Assembly: GCF_001625215.2 (NCBI RefSeq)
Contig: NC_030385.2
Span: forward strand, 36,109,598 to 36,173,597
Direction of reading: 5' to 3'
Length of the DNA: 64,000 bases
From: Daucus carota subsp. sativus
Lineage: Eukaryota; Streptophyta; Magnoliopsida; Apiales; Apiaceae
Shown here: piece after piece, positions 9,836 to 51,800 of the stretch
Numbering within the stretch: the stretch's first letter is position 1
How the letters are laid out: each line of letters starts with the position of its first letter
Notes under the pieces: generated by a model
Database searches by the model: none
Told to the model about the DNA's origin: nothing
The model's input: only the letters and a program-made list of their open reading frames with translations
Program-made: the position numbers and the translations under genes

Positions 9836-9880
9836 CTTAAAAATCAAAAACATTGCCGCCATTTCTCTCAATTGTTCCCA

Positions 9881-12427
9881 ATGCCACAGCACCACACTCT
9901 ACTCAAAACCCTCGCTAAAACCCCCTTTCGTTCCTTCTCTACCTCATCTCTCACCCCCAAAAAATGCTCCCCCAATTCATTACTCAACGCCAAACAGACC
10001 CACCAACAACACATTGTCAGAGGCCTCATAAGCACAGACCCCATCACCATCATCTCCATGTACACAGCCTCCGAATCACATTGTGACGCGGTTAGAGTTC
10101 TCGAAAGAATCGAGCCGTCTTCGTCTGCTGTGTATTGGTGGAATGAGGTGATTAAAATGCGGCTGCCCTTTTCGCCGAAAGAGTCGGTGGAGATGTTTGT
10201 GAGGATGGTGAGGTGTGGGTGGAGGCCTGATGGGTACACGTTTCCGTTTGTGCTTAAGGCTTGTGGGGAGATTAGGGGGAGTGCTGAGTTGGTGGGGTTT
10301 TGTGTTCATGGGGTTGTGGTTAAGTATGGGCTTGTGGAGTGTAATGTGTTTGTTTGTAATGCACTTGTGAAGATGTATTTTATGAGTGGGGTTTTGAGGG
10401 ATGCGCGTAGGGTGTTTGATGAAATGTGTGAGAGAGGGGTGGAGGATGTGGTATCGTGGAATTCGATTGTGGCTGTGTATGTTCAGAGTGGGGATGTGAG
10501 GAGTGCATTGGGGTTGTTTGGTAGGATGGGGAAAAGGGGGGAGTTTGGGGTAAGGGCTGATGCGGTTAGTCTTGTTAATATTCTTCCGGCTTGTGGGGTT
10601 GGGAAATCGTGGAGGAGAGGGAAGCAGGTTCATGGGTATGCAGTTCGGAGTGGGCTTTTTGAGGATGTGTTTGTGGGGAATGCTGTTGTGGATATGTATG
10701 CCAAGTGTGAGTTGATGGATGAGGCGAGTAAGGTATTTGAAAGGATGAAGATTAAGGATGTTGTTTCTTGGAATATTATGGTTACCGGGTATTCTCAGAT
10801 CGGGAGGTTTGAAGATGCTTTGAGCTTGTTTGAGCGGATGAAAATGGCGAAGATTGAATTGAACGTGGTTACATGGAGTGCTGTAATTGGTGCTTATGCA
10901 CAGAGGGCGCTTGGTTACGAAGCTCTTGATGTGTTCAGGCAAATGCAGCTTGCTGGATCAAAACCAAATGTTATTACCCTTTTCTCTCTTTTGTCAGGTT
11001 GTGCATCAGTGGGAGCTTTACTTCAAGGGAAAGAAATTCATTGCTACGCTGTGAAAGAAGTTTTAAATGTATCTGTGAATGATCCCCGGGATAATATGAT
11101 GGTGATAAGTGGTATTATCGATATGTATGCCAAGTGCAAAAGTGCTGATACTGCTCGTGCAATATTTGATTCCATAGCCCTAGAGGAAAGAGATGTTGTC
11201 ACATGGACTGTCATAATTGGTGGATATGCACAGCATGGGGAAGCGAACGATGCTTTACAACTTTTTGGTGAAATGCTAACAAATTATAAATATGTAATGC
11301 CAAATGAATTTACTATATCTTGTGCCCTGATGGCTTGTGCTCGTTTGGCTGCTCTGAGATTTGGTAGACAAATCCATGCTTATGGAATTCGTAATCATTT
11401 TGGATCATCAACTTTCGTTGCCAACTGTCTTATTGACATGTATGTTAAATCTGGGGATGTTGATACCGCTAGAATTATCTTTGATAATATGGACAACAAA
11501 AACTCTGTCTCTTGGACATCTCTAATGACAGGATACGGCATGCATGGTCGTGGTGAGGAAGCTATTAAGGTTTTTGAAGGCATGAGGAGGGCAGGCATGC
11601 CAATTGATGGTGTAACTTTTGTCGTCGTGCTTTATGCTTGTAGCCACTCAGGGATGGTTGACCAGGGAATGGAATATTTCAATGGGATGAATACGGAATA
11701 TGGTGTTGTACCCGAGGTTGAACATTATGCTTGTATGGTTGACCTGTTGGGTCGCGCTGGTCGCTTGAATGAAGCACTGAAATTCATCAAAGAAATGCCC
11801 ATGGATCCCAGCCCAATTGTGTGGGTGGCTTTGCTTAGCGCATGCAGGCTTCATACAAATGTGGAACTTGGGGAATTTGCTGCTGGTGAATTGTTAAATT
11901 TGGAGGCAGAAAATGATGGATCTTATACTCTTCTGTCAAACATATATGCAAATGCCAGGCGTTGGAAAGATGTCGCTAGGATAAGATCTTTGATGAAATA
12001 TTCAGGGATCAGGAAAAGACCTGGCTGCAGTTGGGTCCAGGGAAAGAAGGGTACAACTACCTTTTATGTGGGTGACAAAACTCATCCAAGGTCTGGTGAG
12101 ATATATGATCTGCTGGCAGATCTAATCCATCGAATTACAGCTCTTGGTTACGTTCCAGATACTAGATTTGCACTTCACGATGTAGATGATGAGGAGAAAG
12201 GTGATCTTCTTTTTGAACACAGCGAGAAGTTGGCTCTTGCGTACGGGATCCTTACATCAGCTCCAGGGATGCCCATTAGGATCACAAAGAATTTGCGGGT
12301 GTGTGGCGATTGCCATACTGCCATCACTTACATTTCTAAGATAATTGATCACGAAGTTATTATTCGGGATTCAAGTCGCTTCCATCATTTTAAGAATGGG
12401 TGTTGCTCCTGCAAAGGTTATTGGTAA
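9881..12427 (+). CDS. DYW-type pentatricopeptide repeat protein (At5g16860-like)
   Basis: Intronless, 848 aa. An organelle RNA-editing or RNA-binding factor by family. The N-terminus (residues 1-50) is Ser/Thr/Lys-rich with RSFSTSS, consistent with mitochondrial or plastid targeting. PLS-type repeats follow, with recurring VSWNS/VSWT and IDMYAKC signatures. From about residue 715 come the E/E+ region (CSWVQGKKGTTTFYVGDKTHP) and the DYW cytidine-deaminase-like domain: HSEKLA (HxE at 780-782), CGDC (808-811) and the RFHHFKNG end. The last three residues are GYW instead of DYW, as in the Arabidopsis protein I recall. The first half of the gene is strongly G-rich on this strand, which creates a long meaningless antisense frame. 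The frame reaches back to a TTG at 9872; the first ATG is used. Confidence 0.92.
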   Translation: MPQHHTLLKTLAKTPFRSFSTSSLTPKKCSPNSLLNAKQTHQQHIVRGLISTDPITIISMYTASESHCDAVRVLERIEPSSSAVYWWNEVIKMRLPFSPKESVEMFVRMVRCGWRPDGYTFPFVLKACGEIRGSAELVGFCVHGVVVKYGLVECNVFVCNALVKMYFMSGVLRDARRVFDEMCERGVEDVVSWNSIVAVYVQSGDVRSALGLFGRMGKRGEFGVRADAVSLVNILPACGVGKSWRRGKQVHGYAVRSGLFEDVFVGNAVVDMYAKCELMDEASKVFERMKIKDVVSWNIMVTGYSQIGRFEDALSLFERMKMAKIELNVVTWSAVIGAYAQRALGYEALDVFRQMQLAGSKPNVITLFSLLSGCASVGALLQGKEIHCYAVKEVLNVSVNDPRDNMMVISGIIDMYAKCKSADTARAIFDSIALEERDVVTWTVIIGGYAQHGEANDALQLFGEMLTNYKYVMPNEFTISCALMACARLAALRFGRQIHAYGIRNHFGSSTFVANCLIDMYVKSGDVDTARIIFDNMDNKNSVSWTSLMTGYGMHGRGEEAIKVFEGMRRAGMPIDGVTFVVVLYACSHSGMVDQGMEYFNGMNTEYGVVPEVEHYACMVDLLGRAGRLNEALKFIKEMPMDPSPIVWVALLSACRLHTNVELGEFAAGELLNLEAENDGSYTLLSNIYANARRWKDVARIRSLMKYSGIRKRPGCSWVQGKKGTTTFYVGDKTHPRSGEIYDLLADLIHRITALGYVPDTRFALHDVDDEEKGDLLFEHSEKLALAYGILTSAPGMPIRITKNLRVCGDCHTAITYISKIIDHEVIIRDSSRFHHFKNGCCSCKGYW

Positions 12428-13545: not shown

Positions 13546-16500
13546 TTAAAGAAGGCCATTTACAGGTGAGGTGCTAAAAATTGGTTTATCTTTGTTAGCT
13601 GCATTTCCTGAAGTATTGCTACTACTTTTTCTCCGAGGTTTCGCCTCTCCGAGCATGGTTATAACATCTCTCATGGAAGGCCTGTCTTTAGGAAACTTGG
13701 CTGTACAAAGGATAGCAATTCTGAGCACTAAAAGCATCTCCTCTTGTACATGTTGGCAGTTACCTACATTGGGGTCTAGTGTTTCTTCTAATGCTTTATT
13801 GTCTAGCCTCTTCCTCCGTATCCATTCAACTATATCAACAGATTCACCAAATCCTGGATCCAATGGTCGTTTTCCAGTTAGAAGTTCCATCAGAACCACC
13901 CCGTAGCTGTAGATATCGCTTTTCTCATCCACTTTCAATGTGTACCCATATTCTGCAGGTAATCACGTCAGACGAAAACATTATTGTTTGTTTTGTAATT
14001 AATCTTGAACTAGATACGCCTATAATATCTGTCGCCTATCTGACATCATTGTATTAATTCATTTCATCTATTTGTGATATAAGTAAATATATGATCCTTT
14101 ACATTTTTTTGTAATCATCAGGATACACGGGCGGGGACACACCAAGATATTGTGACTGTCTGACTGTTTTTAACTTGATTCTCAGGGGAGATAGAAAATA
14201 TAAATTATCGAGGTTAATATAGTTGGTAATAGAAAGCTCACCTGGGGCTATATATCCGTAAGATCCTGCAACCATTGACACCGTTTCATTCTTCTTAGGC
14301 ATCATCTTTGCTAATCCGAAATCAGCAATTCTGGCCTCCAAATTTGCATCCAGTAATATGTTATTTGACTTGACATCTCGGTGAATCACCAAGGGGTGAC
14401 AGTCATGGTGCAGGTAAGCGAGTCCTTGAGCAACTCCAACAGCTATATTATAGCGCAAAACCCAGTCTACGAGCAACGTCCCTGCTTCTTTTCCATGCAA
14501 AGCTTCTCCGAGGCTTCCATTCTGCATGTACTCATATATAATCATGGCATTGCCGTTGTTATGAAGAAACCCTAGTAACCTAACAATGTTTCGATGCCTC
14601 AACCTTCCTAGCAAATTCACCTCTCCCACTAGATCATCACTACCTCCCATTTCAATATCTGTTGTAGTTCTCCAAAGCTTCTTTACTGCAACAACAGTGT
14701 TAAGCCTTTGCATTTCGGCCTTGTATACTATTCCTGTTGCCCCCATTCCAACCACATTTGATTCGGTTATGGATGCCAAAATGTCATTGCTTTTGAAATC
14801 AAGCCTCTGGAATGCCATTAGTCTCCAAGGCCATTCTCCTTTGCCCAATTCATATTTCTCTTCAAAGCAACTTCCGTTTGTGTACCATTTGTTGTAAAGA
14901 GTTTTTGCGCCAAAAGCTGCTATTACAAGAGCTAGTAGAGTTGAGATTCCGATGACCCATCCACCAATGATGTGTTTTGCGTGAAATCTTCCCTGCCCGG
15001 ATGTATATGCCATGTCATGTGAGCATGGAGGTAGTATGCTACCGCAGAGACCAGCATTGCCCACAAGATCATTTGGATTGGCTGTTCTGAGCATTCCATT
15101 TTCCGGAACAGGACCCTCTAGCTTATTGTAGGATACATTCAGCACTTCTAGAGCCGGAGAATTCCCAAAAGTTCCAGGTATCCCGCCAGTCAGTGAATTG
15201 TTTGATAGATCAAGAATTGCCAATGTGGGCATCATTGCGATTGCTTTCGGAATTGGTCCTGATAATTGATTGTTTCCAAGATCAAGAGTGACTAGTTTCT
15301 CAGATGAAGCAATACTAGCTGGAATGCTTCCAGTAAAATGATTTGAGGACAGGTCGAGTATTGAAAGTGAAGGAGAGTCCTGAAACTGGTCCGGGATTTC
15401 GCCTACCAATTCATTGTTAGATACCAATAGATTTTGAAGATTGGGTATTGAGAGAATGGAGAAAGGAAGAGAGTTTTGAAGATGGTTATGTGATAAGTCG
15501 ATGAAAGAAATTGATGTTGAAGAGACAATATCATTTGGGATTTGTCCAGTGAGACTATTATTAGCTAATTCTAGTCTTTGAAATTTTGGGAGTTTCCCAA
15601 ATCCCACTGGTATTGTTCCAGAGAGGTTATTATTTTGAATCCGCACACGAATCAAGGACATACAACCTGATAAACCTGCTGGAATTGGACCAGATAAACC
15701 GTTGTTGAAAAGAATAAGCTTAGTAAGATTGCCATTATGGCACAAACTTTCTGGAATTGGACCTGAAAATGAATTAGACGATATGTCTAACCATTGTAAT
15801 GGTGAATTCCTGCCAAGATCACTTGGCAAAGTACCTGAAATGGAGTTGTTCCATAACTCTAGGACCTCTAAAGCAGGCATTCCTCCTAGTCCAGAAGGGA
15901 CTGAGCCAGACAAGTGGTTGCACATCAGGTTCAAGAGCTGCAACTTCTTCAAATCAGCTATCTCTGCTGGAATTTCTCCTGATAACATGTTATCAGAGAG
16001 ATCTAAGAACATTAGCGATGAAATGTTGCCTATTTCTGGTGGAATTTTACCCTCAAGATTATTGTTGTACAGGTAAACTGTATCAAGTAGCTCCAGCCTC
16101 CCCAATTCAGGTGGAATTGCACCTTGAAGATTACCAACGGCCAAGTCAAGGTACTTGAGATTAGTTAGATTTCCAAACTCTGCTGGGATTTCGCCTCTAA
16201 GATCATTGTATCCGATGACAATACTCTCCAATGAAGAAAGTTGGCCTAGCTCTGGAGGTATATTGCCAGAGATATTATTACCTGAAAGACCAAGAAACTT
16301 CAGTTTACCCAAGTTCTTGAAAGACTTTGGGATGGAACCTTCGAAAAAGTTTCCTCTGAGATCAAGGCTTTCAAGGGAGGTTGCATTTCCAAGATCCTCA
16401 GGAAGATAGCCTGAGAAATTATTACTAGAAGCATTCAGCGCAGTCAAGCCAACAACATTCCCTAGCCCGAGTGGAAAGCTTTCTACAAAACTGTTCTGGC

Positions 16501-16909
16501 TGAGATCAATGATCTTGAGTGCATTAAAACTGGATAAAGATTTTGGCAATGGTGATGAGAACCCGTTGCAGCTCAAGTCAAGAAAAGCGAGACTTTGCAG
16601 TTTCTGAATGTCACTCGATACAATGCCACTAAGATTCTTGTTGGAAAGATCAAGCTTTTCAACCACACCAATAGAGTTGCAGCTCACTCCAGTCCACTTA
16701 CAGTGAACTGAACTGTTCTGTATACCTTTGTCTGGTGATATCCAATCTTTCAGCTGATCTAACGGATCAATCAGCTTCTCTTTTATCGATAGTAAAATTG
16801 ACACTTCACTATCAACCTCAACCTTCCCAACCACCTCAGCATGACTAAAACTGTTGCAGAAAATGTAACAGTTGAATAACAAGAAGAGACAGGTAAATTG
16901 CCACTTCAT
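13546..16909 (-). CDS. MIK1: LRR receptor-like kinase, MIK1/PXL type (LRR-XI)
   Basis: Plasma-membrane receptor kinase. Two exons, 14242-16909 and 13546-13952, joined in the glutamate of APE (G|AA), give 1024 aa; Arabidopsis MIK1 is slightly shorter. In order: a signal peptide (1 to about 24), an LRRNT with paired cysteines ([10 protein letters not shown]), about 21 LRRs ([13 protein letters not shown] type), a TM helix (about 646-668), and the kinase. Kinase motifs are intact: GMGATG loop (about 721), VAVKK lysine, HRDVKSNN (about 843), DFGLAK (about 863), APEYGYTL, and the tail [10 protein letters not shown], which Arabidopsis MIK1 shares from memory. HRD and DFG suggest an active kinase. 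Family members sense peptide ligands such as LURE or CLE/TDIF types; the ligand here is unknown. PXL1 is the main alternative name. Confidence 0.93.
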
Positions 16910-21039: not shown

Positions 21040-22401
21040 TCATGAAAAATTGAGAGCATCCAAGAACTCAGCATCTCTTTCCAATGCACTCATGGAATGC
21101 GGAAGCAGGCACAAATCCACATCTATGCTTCCTCCACCTCGATTCCCCGGATACAAAGTCCCCTTGCCATCAAACTTGTTATCATGTCCACTCAAAACCG
21201 CCACAGCCTTTCCCAACCCGAACTCATTTCCATACATATCAAACCGCGGGGAGCTCCCAAACATAACCAGGCCAGGATCAACTAAACGCTGGAATTGGTA
21301 AATAACAGGATTCTGCATCCAGCTCTTAAGGCCCTCTCGTATAGCCTTGTCGTCGTGTTTAGATATAGCTTCCGTTAATAGCATGGCAGCCCAGCCTAAA
21401 TCATTCTCCAGCAGCTCACCAGCTGTAGTCACGGCTCCAGTTGTCTGAATGCCGTTGCCAAAATAATTTTGTGGCAGGGCTGGCTCTAGCCGTGACCTGA
21501 TATTCACCGATGTTTTACAGATACTAATATGATTCTGTGGTAAACCTCGAGCACGTATAACACATCTCCAGAACAAGGCAGACAATGCTTGTAAACTAGA
21601 GACAGTGATGCCTCTGTTTTTACAATCAGCATTGGCTCTTGCTTTGATCCTTGCTAATGAAGCGACTGAGAAATGGAATATTCTTTCTTTGAGCTCGGGA
21701 CGTTCGTATCTGTTAATGAATTGATCATGATGAGTAAAAGGGAGGTTGTAGAAAGGGCCTTGTCCATCAGGGAACCAGCTTTCAAGAACAGGCGGCCGCG
21801 AGATTTTTGCTGCTTCACTGTCAATTTTCTTCTCAAACACTTCTGATAGAGTGTTGATGAAGTGCCAATAAGAGGTGCCATCGGCCACACAGTGGTTCGA
21901 TGAGAACCCGATGAAGATACCATCAGTTAGCTCAGTCACTTGGACTGTTAGCAAGGACAGGGTGTGACCGTCGTGGTTGACAGCCTTGTAATGATCAAAG
22001 AAATGCTGGACAATGGAAGGCACGTAGGCCGGTGATAAGATATCAGACACGGATAAATTCAATTTGGAATGTACAAATTTAGCTCCAGGGCTGTTGCTGC
22101 AATCTATGTACACCTCATACAAATGTGGATTTTCGCGTGTTTGGGTAGCAAGGCGGCCTGCAAGTGGATAGAAATGAGCAAGAGTAACAGAGAGGGAGTG
22201 CTTAAGCCTCTCAAGGAAACCTGGAATTGAGCTTTCTTGATCATCTGAAAGAGGGGTTTTTCGAAAAAGAAGGCCTTTCTGGATGTAATGACCATTTAGC
22301 AAGCAAAGATCCCAGGGTGTTCTATGAAGTACTTGTTCTTTTCCCTCTATATTTGATGGTTTGATGAAGCACTCAGAAATAAGCTCAACTTGAGGATCCA
22401 T
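21040..22401 (-). CDS. BAHD (HXXXD) acyltransferase, At3g50280-like
   Basis: Soluble cytosolic enzyme transferring an acyl group from acyl-CoA to an alcohol or amine; the substrate cannot be read from the sequence. One exon, 453 aa, normal for the family. HCVADG (H170, D174) is the catalytic HXXXD. The C-terminal DFGWG motif appears as NEFGLGK (about 392-398), which fits the At3g50280/EPS1-type clade that I recall as having the same form. Other clade signatures are HYIQKGLLF, HFYPLAGRL, YFGNGIQT and GGGSIDVDL. Start ATG at 22401 is followed by MDPQVELISECFIKP, the usual start. A decayed copy of its 5' end is at 23471-23700. Confidence 0.92.
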   Translation of the reverse strand: MDPQVELISECFIKPSNIEGKEQVLHRTPWDLCLLNGHYIQKGLLFRKTPLSDDQESSIPGFLERLKHSLSVTLAHFYPLAGRLATQTRENPHLYEVYIDCSNSPGAKFVHSKLNLSVSDILSPAYVPSIVQHFFDHYKAVNHDGHTLSLLTVQVTELTDGIFIGFSSNHCVADGTSYWHFINTLSEVFEKKIDSEAAKISRPPVLESWFPDGQGPFYNLPFTHHDQFINRYERPELKERIFHFSVASLARIKARANADCKNRGITVSSLQALSALFWRCVIRARGLPQNHISICKTSVNIRSRLEPALPQNYFGNGIQTTGAVTTAGELLENDLGWAAMLLTEAISKHDDKAIREGLKSWMQNPVIYQFQRLVDPGLVMFGSSPRFDMYGNEFGLGKAVAVLSGHDNKFDGKGTLYPGNRGGGSIDVDLCLLPHSMSALERDAEFLDALNFS

Positions 22402-37018: not shown

Positions 37019-40000
37019 TCAAGCTTCAGCATCAGATTCACAGTCCTCGCTGGCCCCGGTCCATATACGGGGTTTAGGTCTAATATCCATCCCCTGTTCC
37101 GGCTATACAAAGTTAAAAACAAAAAGTTAAGTAGAATTTAAAATATCTAAACCTAAAGACAGTGCAAGTGTTGCTCTAAAATTGAAGTAAAACGTTTAAG
37201 CACAAACATGTGCTACTAACCTGTTCTGGAACTCTGGTGACCGGTGGTGCTGTCTGAAACTGTACACTGGGCGTGTGAGTTAATCTAGAAATCTGTTCAA
37301 GGAGAAGATTCCTGCAGTGGCAATGTAATACAAAATGATTAAACTGACATCATGAAATCCTATCCTTGGTGGACAAGCACGTGGAGAAGGAAGAACTGGA
37401 GAAGAAACTGTATACATATAATAAACACTTGAAGAGGGGGAATACTGCATCAAAATCAAAAGTGAAATAACAGGAAAAACAGTGCTCCAAGAACAATTAT
37501 TCCACGAAGCACTAATTCTAATTTTTAAAGATTCAGTCTATAAACAATACTATTACGCCTGTTGTTTAGCTGTAGAGAGTATTGAATAATAATAATAACA
37601 CATTATACCAAACGACACATTCTAGAAGTACAATTACTAGTACAAACTCAAATTAAATAAACATCAATAAATACGGCATCTATAAATACCTGATTTTCTC
37701 CAGATCAGCGGGTGAGTTGTGGTTCTCAACAGGAGTCGGTCGCACATGAAGTGTGTAATCTGGGCCAAAGTACTCGAAGTATTCATTGAAAGGCAATTTA
37801 TTGTCAGGTTCCACCCCAACTGCAACTGCTGTCTGAAAGAACACATGGGTTCAATGGCTAAGATTCAAAAGCAATTTTGTGGGTGTGTGAGTGTGTGTGT
37901 AAGGGGGAGAGAGACGGAGAGAGAGAGAGAGAACCTCGTAGCACCAGCATCGGGCCACATTCCGCATTGTATACCCACCCCCACCCAGAACCATTAGAGG
38001 AACATTAAAAGATCTGAGGAATCGTAGACAATCAGCATGACCTTTTACGGACAAGTTGAAGCATCCCAACCTGTCACCAGCCAATGAATCAGCTCCACAT
38101 TGCAGAACAACTGCTTCCGGTTGGTAAGCATCCATGACTTTACGAATTACTGGTCGAAATAGTTCCCGAAAACTGTCATCATCAATGCCATCATTCAGTG
38201 GCACATTAAGGGAATAATTCTTGCCCTGACCATGGCCAACGTCTTTAATGTGCCCGGTTCCAGGAAAGAAATCCCCATATTTATGGAAAGACACAGTCAT
38301 TACTCTATCTGTTGTATAAAATGCCTCTTCTACACCATCTCCATGGTGAATGTCAATATCTATATACAACACACGCTGCGCAAAAGAACCAAGTGTGTCA
38401 GACAGTAGTAATCATATATACAGTTACAGAACAAATAGATCAAGCTATTACCAATGGCATGAATATGATTGACAGATTGGAAGGCATGCATGCTAGAATC
38501 TTACAAGATGCTCTTTAGAAAATAAGTTGGAGCAAACTTTCATGGCAATTGAACATCTAAAGATAAATTAGAAGATGCAAACAGGCGTTTTGTAAAAAAA
38601 CTGTTCTTTGTTTTTTGACTAGCAAGGAGCAGAATCTAATCATGATTCCATGATGCATTATCAATAGTAAAGTATATATATTCACAAGAAAAACAATATT
38701 AGCAAACTATTTAATGGTATTCCGCTCATCCTTGTCAGTTCAGAAGGGAAGGAGACAGGGGAGCATGCAGACACACAACTTCCATCTCATTTAGGGGGAA
38801 TTTGGATCATGGCATTTGAAGCCGGCTAATGGAAATGGAAATGAAATATTAATACATCGTTGCGCAGTCTCATTAGTCATTCCCATTTCTACTGATCAGG
38901 TTCAAATCCGATGTTCCAAATGGCTCATACTTCTTCACTATATAATGAAAACTGTATGAACATTAAGCCAAGTTTACAATTTCAAAATCCCTAGAAAGTA
39001 AAACCCTAAGAAAAATCAGAGCAACAAATAAACAGACTAGACCACATCAAATACTCCTACCCCAATTTTTATTTTTATTTTCTTATTTTAATTCACATAT
39101 AATCAGCAATTTAACTTGCCACACACTACCAAGACTTCAAAAGCTCAAACTCAAAACCCTCGTAATAAAACCTTTAACCGACAGATAAGCAGGATTGAAG
39201 CACACAAACACAAGAGCACCATGCACACATACACACAAATTACCCGATACACATTGATAAGCTCAAAATACCAAGATCAATATCATTAAGATATCAAATA
39301 AAACAATATTAACCGTGTTCGAAAAATCCCCAAGTCATCCCTAAAAAGTTAATCGCCAATTTGATCGTTAAAAGTCCAATCAATCCCTATGAATTGTTCT
39401 CAAATGACATGTATTATAATAAATAAGGTTAGCATATTGATTATTACATATTAAAATGTATCCAATTATTGCTCCCGATTACCTGCTGACAGATCCCTAA
39501 TCGATGACCCGTTTTGTCAACCATGAATCTAATATTTAAAAATATATCCAAAACTCCGAACTCAAAAACCCTAAAAATCCCAACTTAAATCAAACCCTGG
39601 AGAGAGAGAGAGATAGAGAGGGGAGAGAGAGAGAGAGAGAGATTACCTTATGTATCTTAAGCAGCTCAAGAATTCCCAGAACAATATCATTAACATAGCA
39701 AAACCCAGAAGCCTCCGACTTTTTCGCATGATGAAGCCCCCCAGCCCAATTAATCGCAATATCCGCATCCCGCAAATTCAACTTGACCGCAGCTCCAATC
39801 GACCCACCAGCACTCGCCTGACAAAAACTAAACATCCCATCAAACACGGGACAATCTTCCCCCACATTAAACTTCTTCAAGTGTCTAGCATGCTCATGAT
39901 CATGTAATGACTCCGGCGTCACTGACTCTAAAAAGTCCACGTAATCGGCCGAATGGAACTTCCCGATGTCAGCGGGGCCCGCCGGAAAAGGATTGATGAT

Positions 40001-40192
40001 CTCCATCCTGTGGTGGAGATTGTAGTGAACGATGAGATTGTGGGTCATGCGAATACGGTGGGGTTTCATTGGGTGGCCTTGGCCGTAGTAGTAGTCGCCG
40101 ATTGTGGGTTCGTAGAAGTATACCACGCGCCGTCTGGATGCGTCTGTGCCTGGGGATGGGAGTGACGCGCCGGAGAAATCGTCGTTAGCCAT
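37019..40192 (-). CDS. HDA6: Class I (RPD3-type) histone deacetylase, HDA6-like
   Basis: Nuclear Zn-dependent lysine deacetylase; HDA6 acts in silencing of transposons, rRNA genes and in stress and jasmonate responses. Five exons: 40192-39647, 38375-37935, 37832-37690, 37311-37221, 37102-37019, giving 434 aa. The N-terminal segment (ASLPSPG then [21 protein letters not shown]) and the RPKPRIWTG tail point to HDA6, not HDA19 or HDA9. The active site is complete: HH (154-155), Zn ligands D190 and H192 (DIDIHHGD) and D278 (GADSLAGD), and the GGGGYT tyrosine (about 317). The tail is about 35 aa shorter than Arabidopsis HDA6 as I recall it, ending in an acidic stretch (ESDAEA). Intron 1 (1.27 kb) and intron 2 both begin with CT microsatellites right after the donor. 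Confidence 0.93.
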
Positions 40193-46031: not shown

Positions 46032-46988
46032 GTATCCACCTTAGGCTCCACACCCATGAGCTCCGTCAGGTCCCTCATTTCGCCAACCTGCTTGAAGCAA
46101 GAGTTAGCCGGCTCACTTCGCTGTTCAGATCGCCCCGGGCTGCTAACAATGCAGGCGCTGGGAACCCTGCTCCACAAGTTTGATTTTCGAGATTCAAGAT
46201 TCAAGATTCTTGGCCTACATTTAGATAAACCATATATTCTGCACATATCCATTCTTGAAACGACAAAATGAAAGCAGCTTATAAACTTTGTTTGCGGTTG
46301 AGAAGATTCTACACACAAGAACATGCACGGGGGGATTTAAGATCGATGTTTGTTTTCGAAAATTTGTGGAGTTCCAAGATCAAGATTCAAGGACCAGGTG
46401 GTAGGACATTATGCACTAGGATGAGTTTGTGAATGTAGTTGATTTGTTACTTAGTTCTTTTGGTACTGTTATTAATGCTGTGTTTCTTTTGATACTGTTA
46501 TTAATGCTGTGTTCTGATGTAACTAGGCTTCTATTGTTACCTCATGTGTTTGCTTAATTACCAATTACCATACTGCGGTGGATGAATGATTCTGAATATT
46601 AATTCTATAGCTTCCAGTTCTTGCTGTTTGTTTATATTTGATTCAGTAAATTTAGTTACCAAAAAGTCGGTTTGGAATTTGGAAATATATATTCGATCAA
46701 CTAAAATGATTTTAAATATTTAGTTAAACAATTGTAAGAATCCTGTTCTACTACTTTAACCCTGTTTGGCAATCAGAGTAGGGTGGGATTGTGTGCATGA
46801 GAATTCAGTACACTGGCTACTATGTGCTCAGTCTACAGAACATATGATCATGTATGATACCGAAAAAATAGCTTATTTCTGAAAAATTTAATAAATTATT
46901 TTTGAAAGATAAAATATTGGGTGAGCTTGTGTAAACTATTTTATATTTTACAACATACAAAAGAGATGTTTGGCTAAATTTATAAATC
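46032..46988. other. Downstream flank of the 45603 gene
   Basis: 46032-46183 is protein-like in another frame (see finding). After that come 3'-UTR-like and AT-rich DNA, including a short tandem repeat of GTTATTAATGCTGTGTT near 46470-46515. No further gene. Confidence 0.45.
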
Positions 46989-48309
46989 GGGTTTTGGCCC
47001 CAAATAACCAAATTTGAGGTGGTAATGCCCCAAATAACAAAATACCCGATAAATGGCCCTCACTAACATTTAGCGACGCTACTGGTGTAGCGTTTTGGTT
47101 TTTTTAACCAAAACGCTACATCGTGTAGCGTCTTAGCAATTTAAATTTTTCCAAACCCTTAAAACGCTACACCTAATAGCGTTTAAGGTTCTTATCTTTT
47201 TTAAAAAAATAAACAAACGCGACTTACATTGGCGTTTGAATTTGGTGGGCCTGTTGGGCCTTTTATTTTGCTTATACAAACGCTAGTTAGTCAAGCGTTT
47301 TAACTTATAACCTAGTGCCCTCCCCCCCTTTTTCTTGATAGACTTAGTTTTTGTGGTCTCTTTAAAATATTTTCTAAGTATAAATAAATCATTCTAAAAT
47401 TGAAATATATACCCTAAAATATTAACGACGGCTAATTTACCTTCTAATTATTATTTTATTAAATTAAATCCTAAATGTTAACGATTGTAAATTAATTTAT
47501 TCCGTCGGTTTCTCGGCTTTAGGGCCTTCGGCCCTGAAGCCTCGCATTAATTAGGGTTTAGGCTCGAGGAGTAGGGCCTACCGGCCCTACACCCTCAATC
47601 CTAAACCCTAACCGTCGGCCAATTTAATATACATTACGAATTAATCATTCTGCAACCCAAACCTAAACCCTAAATGTTAACGATTGTAAATTAATTTATT
47701 CCGCCGGTTTCTCGGCTTTAGGGTCTTCGGCCCTGCAGCCTCGCATTAATTAGGGTTTAGGCTCGAGGGAGTAGGGCCTATCGGCCCTACACCCTCAATC
47801 CTAAACCCTAACCGTCGGCCAATTTAATATACAGTACGAATTAATCATTCTACAACCCAAACCTAAACCCTAAATGTTAACTTTTGTAAACTAATTTATT
47901 CCGCCGGTTTCTCGGTTTTAGGACCTTCGGCCCTTCAGCCTCGCATTAATTAGGGTTTAGGCTCGAGGGAGTAGGGCCCACCGGCCCTACACCCTCAATC
48001 CTAAACCCTAACCGTCGGCTAATTTAATATACAGTACGTATTAATCAAACATAAACCCTAAATATTAACGATTGTAAATTAATTAATTAGATTTAGTCTT
48101 GGGCTTGGGCCTTAAAGTGATAAACGCTAAATACATTAGCGTTCAACCTTATATATAAAAGTTCTGAACGCTTAACGCATTAGCGTTCCCCCATATATAT
48201 ATAAAACGCTACTGGTAAAACGTCTTTATTGGTTATTGAGGGCCATTTTCACAAAATCTGTTATTCAGGGCATTAAACTCCAAAATTATGTTATTTGGGC
48301 CCTTTTTTC
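46989..48309. mobile_element. Mutator-like element (MULE), non-autonomous, 1321 bp, with internal tandem array
   Basis: Exact 9-bp duplication TTATAAATC at 46980-46988 and 48310-48318, the Mutator hallmark. Long imperfect inverted ends of about 75 bp: the left reads GCCCCAAATAAC...TAATGCCCCAAATAAC...ATGGCCCTCA, the right complement GGCCCAAATAAC...TAATGCCCTGAATAAC...ATGGCCCTCA. Inside the ends are several AACGCTA / TAGCGTTT motifs in both orientations. The middle is a 199-bp tandem array (listed separately). No transposase or captured gene frame. Confidence 0.85.
47471..48110. repeat. Tandem array of about 199 bp, three full units and a partial fourth
   Basis: Units start CTAAATGTTAAC at 47471, 47670 and 47870, with a fourth start (CTAAATATTAAC) at 48058 that breaks off. 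Each unit carries CCTAAACCC and AATTAGGGTTTAGG (telomere-like words), plus two hairpins, AGGGCC-TTC-GGCCCT and GTAGGGCC-TACC-GGCCCTAC. Units are highly similar. Confidence 0.9.
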
Positions 48310-48838
48310 TTATAAATCACTTGAGATAAATTATTTTTTTTAAATAAGGTAAATGGATGAGTTTAGTAGACTATTTACTTATAAAAAAGATGTCTGGCTG
48401 GATTTATAAATCACTTATTCATATCGTTTATGTAAGCAACTTATAAGTCAATTTTCAATAATTATTTTAAAAAATAATTATTATATTATATTATTTTGAT
48501 AATTTTTATATCAGAAAAATTGATAAATATCAAATAATTTATCTATATATATAAATTAAAATTCTTTCACTTATAAGTTTTATATATAATCAAGTAAAAA
48601 TCACTCTTTAACTTGAGTCAAACCGGCCCAGATTTCAGTGACAATGCAAAAAAAAACAAATATACCACTTACCAGGCCCAAAGAAAATACCCGAACTCTC
48701 CAGAGCCCAAAGAGCCCACCCCCAAATCCTCATCATCTTCATCTTCGCCAATCTCTCCTCATCAAAACCTATAAATTCAAATCAAACCCCTCAATTTTCC
48801 CTCCAACTAAATCAATTACTCGAATCCCAAAGGCGAAT
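48310..48838. other. Spacer and 5' leader of the WDR70-like gene
   Basis: AT-rich to about 48600. From 48644 the DNA is open in frame with the WDR70-like start at 48839, giving a possible N-terminal extension (see finding). Confidence 0.4.
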
Positions 48839-51800
48839 ATGTCGCAAAACGAACCAGACGACGAAGAAATATACTCCGGGATGCGAGCTAGCTTTCCTGT
48901 TTCATTCGGCAAACAATCCAAATCACAAACCCCTCTGGAAACCATCCACAAATCCACTCTCCGCTCCGTCGACGTATCGAAAAATGTTTCGAAAGAGGCT
49001 AATCCGTTCCCCTCTCTGTCCTCTTCCTCCAAGTCATGGCTTGATTCGCTCAAAAAGAAACCTAACCCTAACCCTAGGGGGAGTGTGAGTGGTGGTGATG
49101 ATGTGGTTGTTGGCCCAGGGAGGCGTAGTTTAGGGACTGTGGTGGAGGAGGATGAGGATGGGGATGAGGAGGATGGTGAGATGATTGGGCCGCCGAGGCC
49201 TCCGGTGATTAGTCAGGTGGAGGAGGAGGTGGAGATTGGGCCTCCGAGGCCTCCGGTAGGTGTGATGGAATCGGATAGTGATAAAGATGATGATTTAGAT
49301 GGGGATCAAGGTGGAGTGAATCGGTATCGGATTCCGTTGAACAATGAGATTGTCTTGAAAGGTCACACTAAAGTGAGTATTTCTCGTTATGTGTACATGT
49401 GTGTTTGTGTGTGTATATTAGTTGATAAAAGTAATTAACAGTATAATTTAATGTAATGCGAATTTTACGAACCGCAATTTAGGAATGCAAGGGTTTTTAA
49501 AGGTGTTTGTGTTTGCGCTTAAATTAAGAGGCAATGACTTCGTGGATTTTGTGTTAATAGGTCACGCTAGGATTGGTATTCAGTTCTGTACTTTCTTAGC
49601 ATTATGTATATATTGTATGAGTTGATGTGAAAAAAGTAAATGTAGTAGTTTACGTGATACGAATAAAAGATCAACTTTAGAAATTTTTGGTGGGTAAAAA
49701 GATTAAGAATTCAATTTAAGGTGCCATTGTTAGCGGATAGATTGAGCTTATGTTGGTCATCCATGATTGTGCATAATTGTGGTGTTGCTAGTTATGATTC
49801 AGGATCTAGAGTTCTTTTAGGATAAAAAAAATTATAAATAGGTGTAAAGAAGCTAGGCTAGATTAATAGACGTACTCCCTCTGGTCCGCAATGTAAGTCT
49901 CTTGAATTTTTGCACACATTTAGCATGCTCTGACTAAATAGAAAAAACTAATATTATATCGTCTTTCCCTTTTTTGAATTAAAATTTTGTGCACTTATAT
50001 TAAAAAAAAAAAAGAAGAAGAAGAAAACTTTCAATAAAAATTTTAGCTGTGTAGTTAAAAGCATATTGAGATGTGTGAAAAAAGTCTAACGACTTATATT
50101 GTGGACCAGAGGGAGTAATTTAGAAATATAAGTTGTTAAAAGTTAGGGATACAGTTGAGGTGTTTATGTTGATTTTTTTTAAGGGATTCTGATATTGTTG
50201 TGTGTACAATACACACGTCATGAGTATATTGTGTGTAATCTTGGATTTATGTTTTTGCCAGGTTGTTTCTGCACTTGCTATTGATCATTCAGGTTCCAGA
50301 GTTCTATCAGGTAGTTACGATTACACAGTTAGAATGTATGACTTTCAAGGGATGAATGCTCGTTTGGAATCATTTAGACAGCTTGAGCCATTTGAAGGCC
50401 ACCAAGTACGTAGTCTAAGTTGGAGTCCTACTGCTGATCGGTTTTTGTGTGTTAGTGGTTCAGCGGTGGCAAAGGTAAATTTACTTCTCTGTGTGATAAT
50501 TTTTATATTGATATTCATTATTATAAACAGATTATTTTGGGTATGGCGTATGGGGGAGATATGAATTGTTTGATTTCAGTTTCAGATTGCTGGAGATTAA
50601 ATTATATTTTATTATATTATTTCAGATTTATGACCGGGATGGATTAACATTGGGCGAGTTTGTGAAAGGGGACATGTATATTCGTGACCTGAAAAACACA
50701 AAGGGCCACATATCTGGACTGACTTGTGGGGAATGGCATCCCAAAGAAAGAGAGACTATCTTGACATCATCGGAGGATGGTTCATTGCGTATATGGGATG
50801 TAAATGAGTTTAAGACCCAAAAGCAGGTATCCGTTTGTCTTTTCCGATTTGTGTGTACTTTTAGTTTCCTGCAAGCTAGCTCAGAATTAGTGGATCGGCC
50901 ACAATAAATTTTATTTGTCTGTTATGTTTGGATTGCTTACGTTTTAGACACATTAATGACCAGTTCTCCAAAAACCTCAAGTGGATCACGGACGCTCGTC
51001 TTTTAGGAATAAATTTGCTTTTTCATATCCATATAAATTATGAGAACATCGGGGGTGGCAGGGAGTCGAACTCGTCTCGCGCCCGCCAACCTAAGCTCTA
51101 ATACCATGTTGAGTGACCAGTTCTCCTAAAATCTCAAGGTTTTAGGAGGCGGTTTACCAGGATTATATTGTATGATGTGATGTCTCACATACAATATGAT
51201 GGAGAAGTGATTGAGGTGGAGAGCATGTGATGATCACATGCTCTCCACCTCAATCACTTCTCCATCACTCACATGTAAAGGCTTATGCTAATTACATCAA
51301 AGTCCAATGAAATTTATAACGTTTGTTCATAACAACTGTTGTAAACAAGCGTGGAGTTTAGAGAGGGGAGTAGCACAATGGATATCTTCTGTGGATTATA
51401 ATTGGAAGGAGGGAAAAAAGAGAGCATTGAAATCGATTTTTATTGACCAATCAGAAGTTTTTGTTGGCTTCCTTACCTTCAATCACTATCAGTAAGCAGT
51501 ATATGCTAATTAGGGAGGTTTTGGGTGGAGAGTTCATAGAAATCATGCTGAAAAATGCATCGATAACATGCCATAATGTCAAGGTTAATAATATGGATTT
51601 CCAATTTAAAAAAATTGTCTCCTGTAATGTATAGTGTCTTATTTGCTCTTGGTCCTATTCGAGCTCAGTTTCAGTAGCAAATTATGCACTTCTTATTATG
51701 TTGAGTAGTATTTTTTGTGGATCTTCTCACAAATATTTTGTAAGTGGGTTATATATGAAAATTTAAATATATATTTTTAAAGTGGTAGTATTTTGGAAGT

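Follow-up and report, generated by a model that had tools for sequence, protein, structure and literature searches.

Structure of the element and its surroundings

The window analysed here is a 64,000-nt stretch of the carrot genome (Daucus carota subsp. sativus), C5:36109598-36173597 in the coordinates used below. Within it lies an element of 1321 bp (46989-48309), flanked by a perfect 9-bp target-site duplication (Table 1). The same GGG opens the related copies, most of which finish with ...TTTTTTC or something close to it. The inverted ends of the element are identical in 71 of 108 aligned columns, compared with a mean of 30% and a maximum of 46% when 200 shuffles of the right end were aligned to the left end. 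A diverged local direct repeat (46953-46988 and 48377-48412, 83% over 36 nt) encloses the element and contains the duplication word for a third time, at 48404. The hallmarks of the Mutator superfamily were found, namely a 9-bp duplication (range 8-11 bp), terminal inverted repeats and, in the coding relatives described below, a MuDR-type transposase. The window element is almost certainly a non-autonomous Mutator-like element (MULE).

Table 1. Features of the element and its insertion site, in window positions.
Feature	Position	Strand	Remarks
Left target-site duplication	46980..46988		TTATAAATC; element boundaries fixed by related copies
Left terminal inverted repeat	46989..47096	+	66% identity to reverse complement of right end
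Left subterminal zone	47086..47310		Rich in AACGC/GCGTT in both orientations; candidate transposase-binding motifs
Spacer, left subterminal zone to array	47301..47464	+	Part unit-like (degenerate unit), by sequence match
Tandem array, ~199/200-bp units	47465..48088	+	Pieces 47465-47568, 47568-47767, 47768-47967, 47968-48088
Nine telo-boxes	47551..48061		Six AAACCCTAA, three TTAGGGTTT
TTAGGGTTT telo-boxes, start positions	47551, 47750, 47950
AAACCCTAA telo-boxes, start positions	47603, 47665, 47803, 47865, 48003, 48053
Long palindrome of one unit	47750..47811		29-nt arms with telomere-like words
Long palindrome of next unit	47950-48011		Counterpart of palindrome 47750..47811
Right subterminal zone	48120..48215		AACGC/GCGTT motifs
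Right terminal inverted repeat	48203..48309	-	Aligned against left end
Right target-site duplication	48310..48318		TTATAAATC
Related empty site, no element	48377..48416		Diverged local repeat of insertion site, uninterrupted ATTTATAAATCACTT

The centre of the element is occupied by a tandem array. TRF placed 2.9 copies of period 200 at 47465-48047 (95% matches), an array which the last partial unit, delimited by the blast pieces, extends to 48088, giving ~3.1 units of a ~200-bp repeat in total. In two units there is a palindrome whose arms are 90% complementary and separated by 4 nt. The word AAACCCTAA, which we take to be a telo-box, was counted 9 times in the element and 4 times elsewhere in the window; the unit that was tested against shuffles contains it three times (shuffle mean 0.0085). 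On either side of the array are zones dense in short AACGC words. Counting both strands, AACGCTA is present 9 times in the element and twice in the other 62.7 kb of the window, whilst the subterminal zones contain 14 AACGC words, where dinucleotide shuffles average 2.1 and never exceed 8 (n = 1000). Moreover, the density of AACGC is 14.1 per kb in the subterminal zones of 35 short elements, whereas 41 kb of flanking sequence has 0.66 per kb. All 35 short copies contain at least five such words in these zones; the array average is 0.06. The ends and the AACGC-rich zones together look like transposase recognition sites.

Most of what the original prediction had described from the window alone is upheld here. 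It had proposed an element of Mutator type that holds an array, clear boundaries marked by an exact 9-bp duplication, long matching ends, and AACGCTA motifs in both orientations close to those ends, and each of these was recovered. The units do carry telomere-like words, which it had noticed as well. It had counted three and a bit units of 199 bp; the number stands, but the length needs correction, the spacing being 199 and 200. The hairpins it had emphasised are real, but controls lend little to the idea that they are under selection (see below).

The surroundings of the element are gene-rich and include ORFs for a PPR-DYW protein (9872-12427), an LRR receptor kinase (14099-16909), a transferase-family protein (21040-22401) and a histone deacetylase (39590-40192). 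Another ORF, at 48638-49438, begins ~0.3 kb past the end of the element, and its 48839-49438 part had no match in Pfam. The element may therefore have inserted in the upstream region of a gene.

Copies elsewhere in the carrot genome

Searches of the genome returned 388 candidates for the whole element, 134 for its left 142 bp, 60 for its right 110 bp and 286 for the unit, and the copy counts given here rest on the best 40 of each. A total of 90 loci were read and merged into 63 stretches. Both ends are present in at least 36 stretches, and in 35 of these 36 the array is present as well, in copies of 0.9-2.2 kb. Target-site duplications were assessed in 35 both-end copies, a set that omits C4:35228115, whose left flank is too short, and includes C2:11516095, which has no array. 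The 9-bp flanks are identical in 15 copies, differ by at most one mismatch in 23 and by at most two in 25, and show three or more mismatches in 10; 12 of the 35 have at least two mismatches. Swapping flanks between copies (n = 1000) gave at most 0 identical pairs, 0 with up to one mismatch and 3 with up to two, which rules out chance as the source of the duplications. Each of the 23 duplications with no more than one mismatch is different from all others. Array size ranges from 225 to 1280 bp across 42 copies (the 35 array-bearing both-end copies and 7 with only a left end), with some arrays clipped at the edge of a stretch. Further copies with different duplications and varying arrays, which had been foreseen for an element of this kind, do exist.

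The association between ends and array is close. An array lies within reach of 27 of the 30 left ends read (from the best 40 of 134 candidates) and 28 of the 30 right ends read (from the best 40 of 60), one of the latter being a 61-bp match. At two of the exceptions on the left, C7:6846024 and C6:6821883, array matches are found farther downstream, whilst at the third, C8:11180022, no array was confirmed. The two right ends with no array in reach are C3:46958822 and that of C2:11516095. The latter is a copy of 355/356 bp which lacks the array and is flanked by an 8-of-9 duplication, and therefore the array is not needed for movement.

At the threshold used, the left segments of the 42 copies, which run from the end to the array, form 13 clusters, and the right segments of 24 of the 42 make up one loose cluster. 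Several left segments of short copies have no match to long copies among the matches listed. The left-segment clusters suggest that short copies arose from independent founders, although the matching to long copies is too patchy for proof. Two stretches, C1:16416024 and C1:17912602, are 97-98% identical beyond the left end too, and are perhaps a segmental duplication or part of a larger host repeat and not two insertions.

Coding relatives and a second element carrying the array

Nine of the 63 stretches contain an array without recognised ends. Five of these arrays (C2:11827371, C6:7646049, C3:31231344, C9:13151393 and C9:26763289) lie inside long multi-copy elements, whose ORFs are on the strand opposite to the unit orientation used. 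Two others, C4:27218828 and C1:2913343, have AACGC words on both sides and no family end was found. In the long elements the array has an N-terminal mudrA-like part on its left and a PMD-type C-terminus on its right, and at two other loci the transposase C-terminus adjoins the left end of the family. Pfam matches to DBD_Tnp_Mut (4.6e-7), SWIM (1.4e-8) and PMD (4e-10) were obtained for representative ORFs that adjoin either the array or the left end. By coordinate searches, there are 23 places where the left-end/C-terminal, N-terminal and right-arm pieces lie colinearly, with order and strand unchanged. An array match fills the gap between N-terminus and right arm at 7 of these, and at an eighth (C1:42289047) there is an overlap of 7 bases; for the other 15 there is no array match in the gap among the matches listed. 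In five copies the array starts 470-715 bp upstream of the transposase ATG.

The PMD (PF10536) is encoded in the ORF beside the array, so that PMD and transposase occur within one element, as in PMD-carrying MULEs. It was found nearly whole and in uninterrupted frames next to right arms at C5:39895484, C1:7225784 and C9:26762264. One long copy, C7:6832645-6846024, spans 13,380 bp with a matching target duplication. The last bases of the family are joined, on the correct strand, to the copy's own left duplication GAAATTTTA at C7:6832636-6832650; with only 12 reverse-strand matches in 441 Mb, a chance junction is unlikely. The right end of this copy is absent from the best 40 of the 60 right-end candidates. 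An exact pattern of end plus duplication for a second long copy, C8:11180022, gave 5 matches, none of them on C8. Among the best 150 of 813 candidates, no match to PF10551, the catalytic MULE domain, was seen at the long copies, in which the gene was read on either side of a ~667-bp middle stretch. Taken together, these data indicate that the array of the short copies was very probably inherited from coding relatives.

Two side observations concern the PMD genes. In the ~13.4-kb copy, PMD regions occur at both C7:6834883 and C7:6838847, ~4 kb from each other, which looks like an internal tandem duplication. Moreover, a second PMD-MULE layout exists at no fewer than four places (C1:5598729/C1:5603480, C4:22213387/C4:22209278, C6:29414961/C6:29418182 and C2:39883464/C2:39877617), in which 3-6 kb separate a MULE transposase domain from a PMD on the other strand; in the family of the window element the two share a strand.

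The array is also found outside the family. At C3:43670231 and C9:39286188 it adjoins an ORF whose match to SWIM is weak, falling below the Pfam cut-off, and which we assume to be FAR1-like from its appearance. The stretch to the right of the array in this SWIM-protein element has five copies, query included, at 93-100% identity (three at 99-100%), and arrays adjoin three of the five (C3:43672610, C9:16249007 and C9:39286309). Here the array is on the 3′ side of the ORF and not at the promoter. Going by the listed order of a unit tree, support values aside, units from two of the SWIM-element arrays grouped together. Given that the array occurs in both the MULE family and the SWIM-protein element, it is common to two different kinds of element. 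Three copies of the latter on three chromosomes (C3:43672610, C9:16249007 and C1:18670661) are 99-100% identical over 1258 bp, which suggests recent movement.

The original prediction had further proposed that a MULE could spread and seed satellites, such that arrays carried by the element expand once deposited. Arrays that travel with the element and differ in length accord with this, and origins of this type are listed for other elements in a review (PMC9659126). Yet the largest array seen is ~1.8 kb (C9:39287470-39289317) and lies inside another multi-copy element, and no long satellite of the unit was found among the best 40 of 286 unit candidates. By hand count, 27 of these 40 places are in copies with a family end, 3 are in the SWIM-protein element and 10 were unread in context. 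The proposal is not supported, as the position of the array is fixed in the coding relatives, and we consider satellite seeding very unlikely. For the same reason the array seems not to be a captured satellite, a reading that we set aside as a first choice. The carrot satellite CentDc, described as having 39-40-bp monomers in ~159-bp units (PMC8259371), is unlike the ~200-bp unit of the array.

Conservation of the array and its possible role

Units are better conserved than the ends of the elements that carry them. For 27 end-ascertained elements with near-full units (351 pairs, units not best-chosen), mean identity was 0.903 for the unit, 0.807 for the left end and 0.768 for the right end. 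Unit identity exceeded left-end identity in 321 of the 351 pairs and right-end identity in 309. Since these elements were chosen for similar ends, the selection bias works against this result. Where left ends are less than 75% alike (n = 70), units average 0.863. The flanks of the array were compared in a set of 30 elements with near-full units. Five pairs of long copies, with transposase N-termini 93-97% identical, show 60-72% identity, gaps excluded, in the 350 bp to the left of the array and 91-96% in the units. In 9 of 10 long-copy pairs the same 350 bp are 58-72% identical, again excluding gaps, and the best-matching units 88-96%. The 100 bp to the right are 88-98% identical between long copies, and the array is thus not the sole conserved part.

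Within the unit, conservation is 98.2% in telo-box columns and 94.1% in the other non-CpG columns (p = 1.5e-4, an optimistic value because the units are related and not independent). Ranked among all 191 nine-base windows of the unit, one telo-box is first and the others are 26th and 32nd. Three telo-boxes are present in 77 of 116 units, two in 35 and one in 4. We take the conservation as a possible sign that a protein-binding sequence is constrained; uniform units could also come about by exchange between elements.

The palindromes raise the possibility that what is kept is a structure, with folding of RNA or single-stranded DNA feeding or blocking silencing. The window unit does fold better than its shuffles (RNA z = -6.9, DNA z = -5.0), and over 115 distinct units 95.4% of hairpin cells hold standard pairs, which none of 200 column shuffles reached (mean 95.2, maximum 95.3). 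Cells changed on both sides of the hairpin number 15, a value attained by 2 of the 200 shuffles (mean 7.1). Related sequences can, however, exceed shuffles without structure, and most pairs scarcely vary. When the structure was slid along the unit, the controls gave 4-18 double-change cells in 3-11 pairs, compared with 15 and 8 for the true structure. Outside the telo-boxes, being part of the hairpin brings a column no extra conservation (94.1%, with 94.0% for the remaining columns; p = 0.87). With the two shuffle controls for it, and the slid controls and column conservation against it, the evidence for hairpin selection is weak. We therefore regard such a device as quite unlikely and treat it as a rival explanation.

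A stronger rival is that the array is a passenger, which one founder kept when its genes were lost and which, being without function, stays uniform through exchange between elements. A single founder would suffice for retention, and copy groups do have left segments in common, with 24 of the 42 right segments in one loose cluster. Identity within arrays is slightly greater than between arrays (0.917 against 0.896), and therefore some homogenisation occurs. The array-less copy with its near-perfect duplication fits this explanation too. Against it are the number of left-segment clusters, although fast divergence from one founder is possible, the left segments that lack a listed match to long copies, and the telo-box columns, which are the most conserved. 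Overall, we hold this to be a possible but somewhat doubtful account.

On balance we favour a non-autonomous MULE in which the array, derived from coding relatives, serves as a cis-control region, either as a promoter or against silencing. The coding relatives are ordered as one end, PMD gene, array, mudrA-like transposase gene and other end, with both genes in the same direction, and the short copy consists of the ends, AACGC-rich subterminal zones and array, with no genes. Such a copy would move by cut-and-paste, using in trans the transposase of a long copy. Lying upstream of the transposase gene, with telo-box units that begin ~0.5-0.7 kb before its start, the array is most simply read as a control region. 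These units might attract telo-box proteins of the host or a protein that the element itself encodes, such that the element stays expressed or unsilenced. Whether the array has been kept as a control region is a separate matter, on which we place the chances a shade below even. The array-less copy, the 3′ position of the array in the SWIM-protein element and the conservation of the right flank all count against it, and the conservation pattern expected from control function would also arise if arrays were homogenised between elements. A narrower version, by analogy with the VANC proteins discussed below, has the array as a docking site for anti-silencing made by the element, with PMD in the role of VANC; non-autonomous copies would keep the array to share the protection, and the unrelated SWIM-protein element, having acquired the array, would exploit it too. 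We think this rather unlikely.

The control-region reading comes near to the target repeats of VANDAL elements in Arabidopsis, which the array may resemble. These repeats are described as changing fast in number, and VANC6 motifs as occurring also in AT9TSD1, an element reported to be unrelated (PMC5735166, PMC10398659); likewise, the carrot array is found in a MULE and a second element. The differences are considerable. VANDALs are described as encoding VANC anti-silencing proteins, whereas the second gene seen in the carrot family encodes a PMD. The ~200-bp unit with its telo-boxes is unlike the VANDAL motifs as reported, and the VANC21 and VANC6 target motifs YAGTATTAY and AGTTGTMC were each found 0 times in the window element. 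Moreover, VANDAL ends are described as degenerate (PMC5735166, PMC10398659), and the carrot element keeps a recognisable inverted repeat. Telo-boxes are reported to be bound by TRB proteins, partners of both activating and repressing complexes (PMC13132431).

Internal satellite-like arrays are described for MITEs and Helitron-type elements such as miDNA4-MITE, DINEs and CgHINE (PMC9659126). Like the carrot element, these are non-autonomous DNA elements that hold a tandem array at their centre. As they are described, they differ from it in that the carrot element is of Mutator type, with a 9-bp duplication and an array traceable to coding relatives; nor did the best 40 of 286 unit places include a long carrot satellite to set beside those of that review. 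The Mutator-like MITEs described from carrot (PMC8227079) have species, superfamily and non-autonomy in common with the window element. Their mean length is 429 bp, compared with 0.9-2.2 kb for the array-bearing both-end copies (n = 35), and the words tandem, PMD and satellite are absent from the main text of that report.

PMD domains are described in plant silencing factors and transposons, and MULEs of rice, grasses and Amborella are reported to combine transposase and PMD in one element, as the carrot family does (PMC5418596). In several grasses and Amborella the PMD is described as fused with the transposase; in carrot the two are separate ORFs with the array between them. It has been speculated that a captured PMD serves anti-silencing in MULEs (PMC5418596), and no report of a cis-target for such a PMD was seen in the literature searched. 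MULEs with PMD being already known, what appears to be new is a PMD-carrying family with a telo-box array that gene-less copies retain. An array that lies between the PMD and transposase genes, is kept by gene-less copies and is better conserved than the ends is a candidate for the cis-target of the PMD. Its presence in a second kind of element adds to the case, which is directly testable in carrot.
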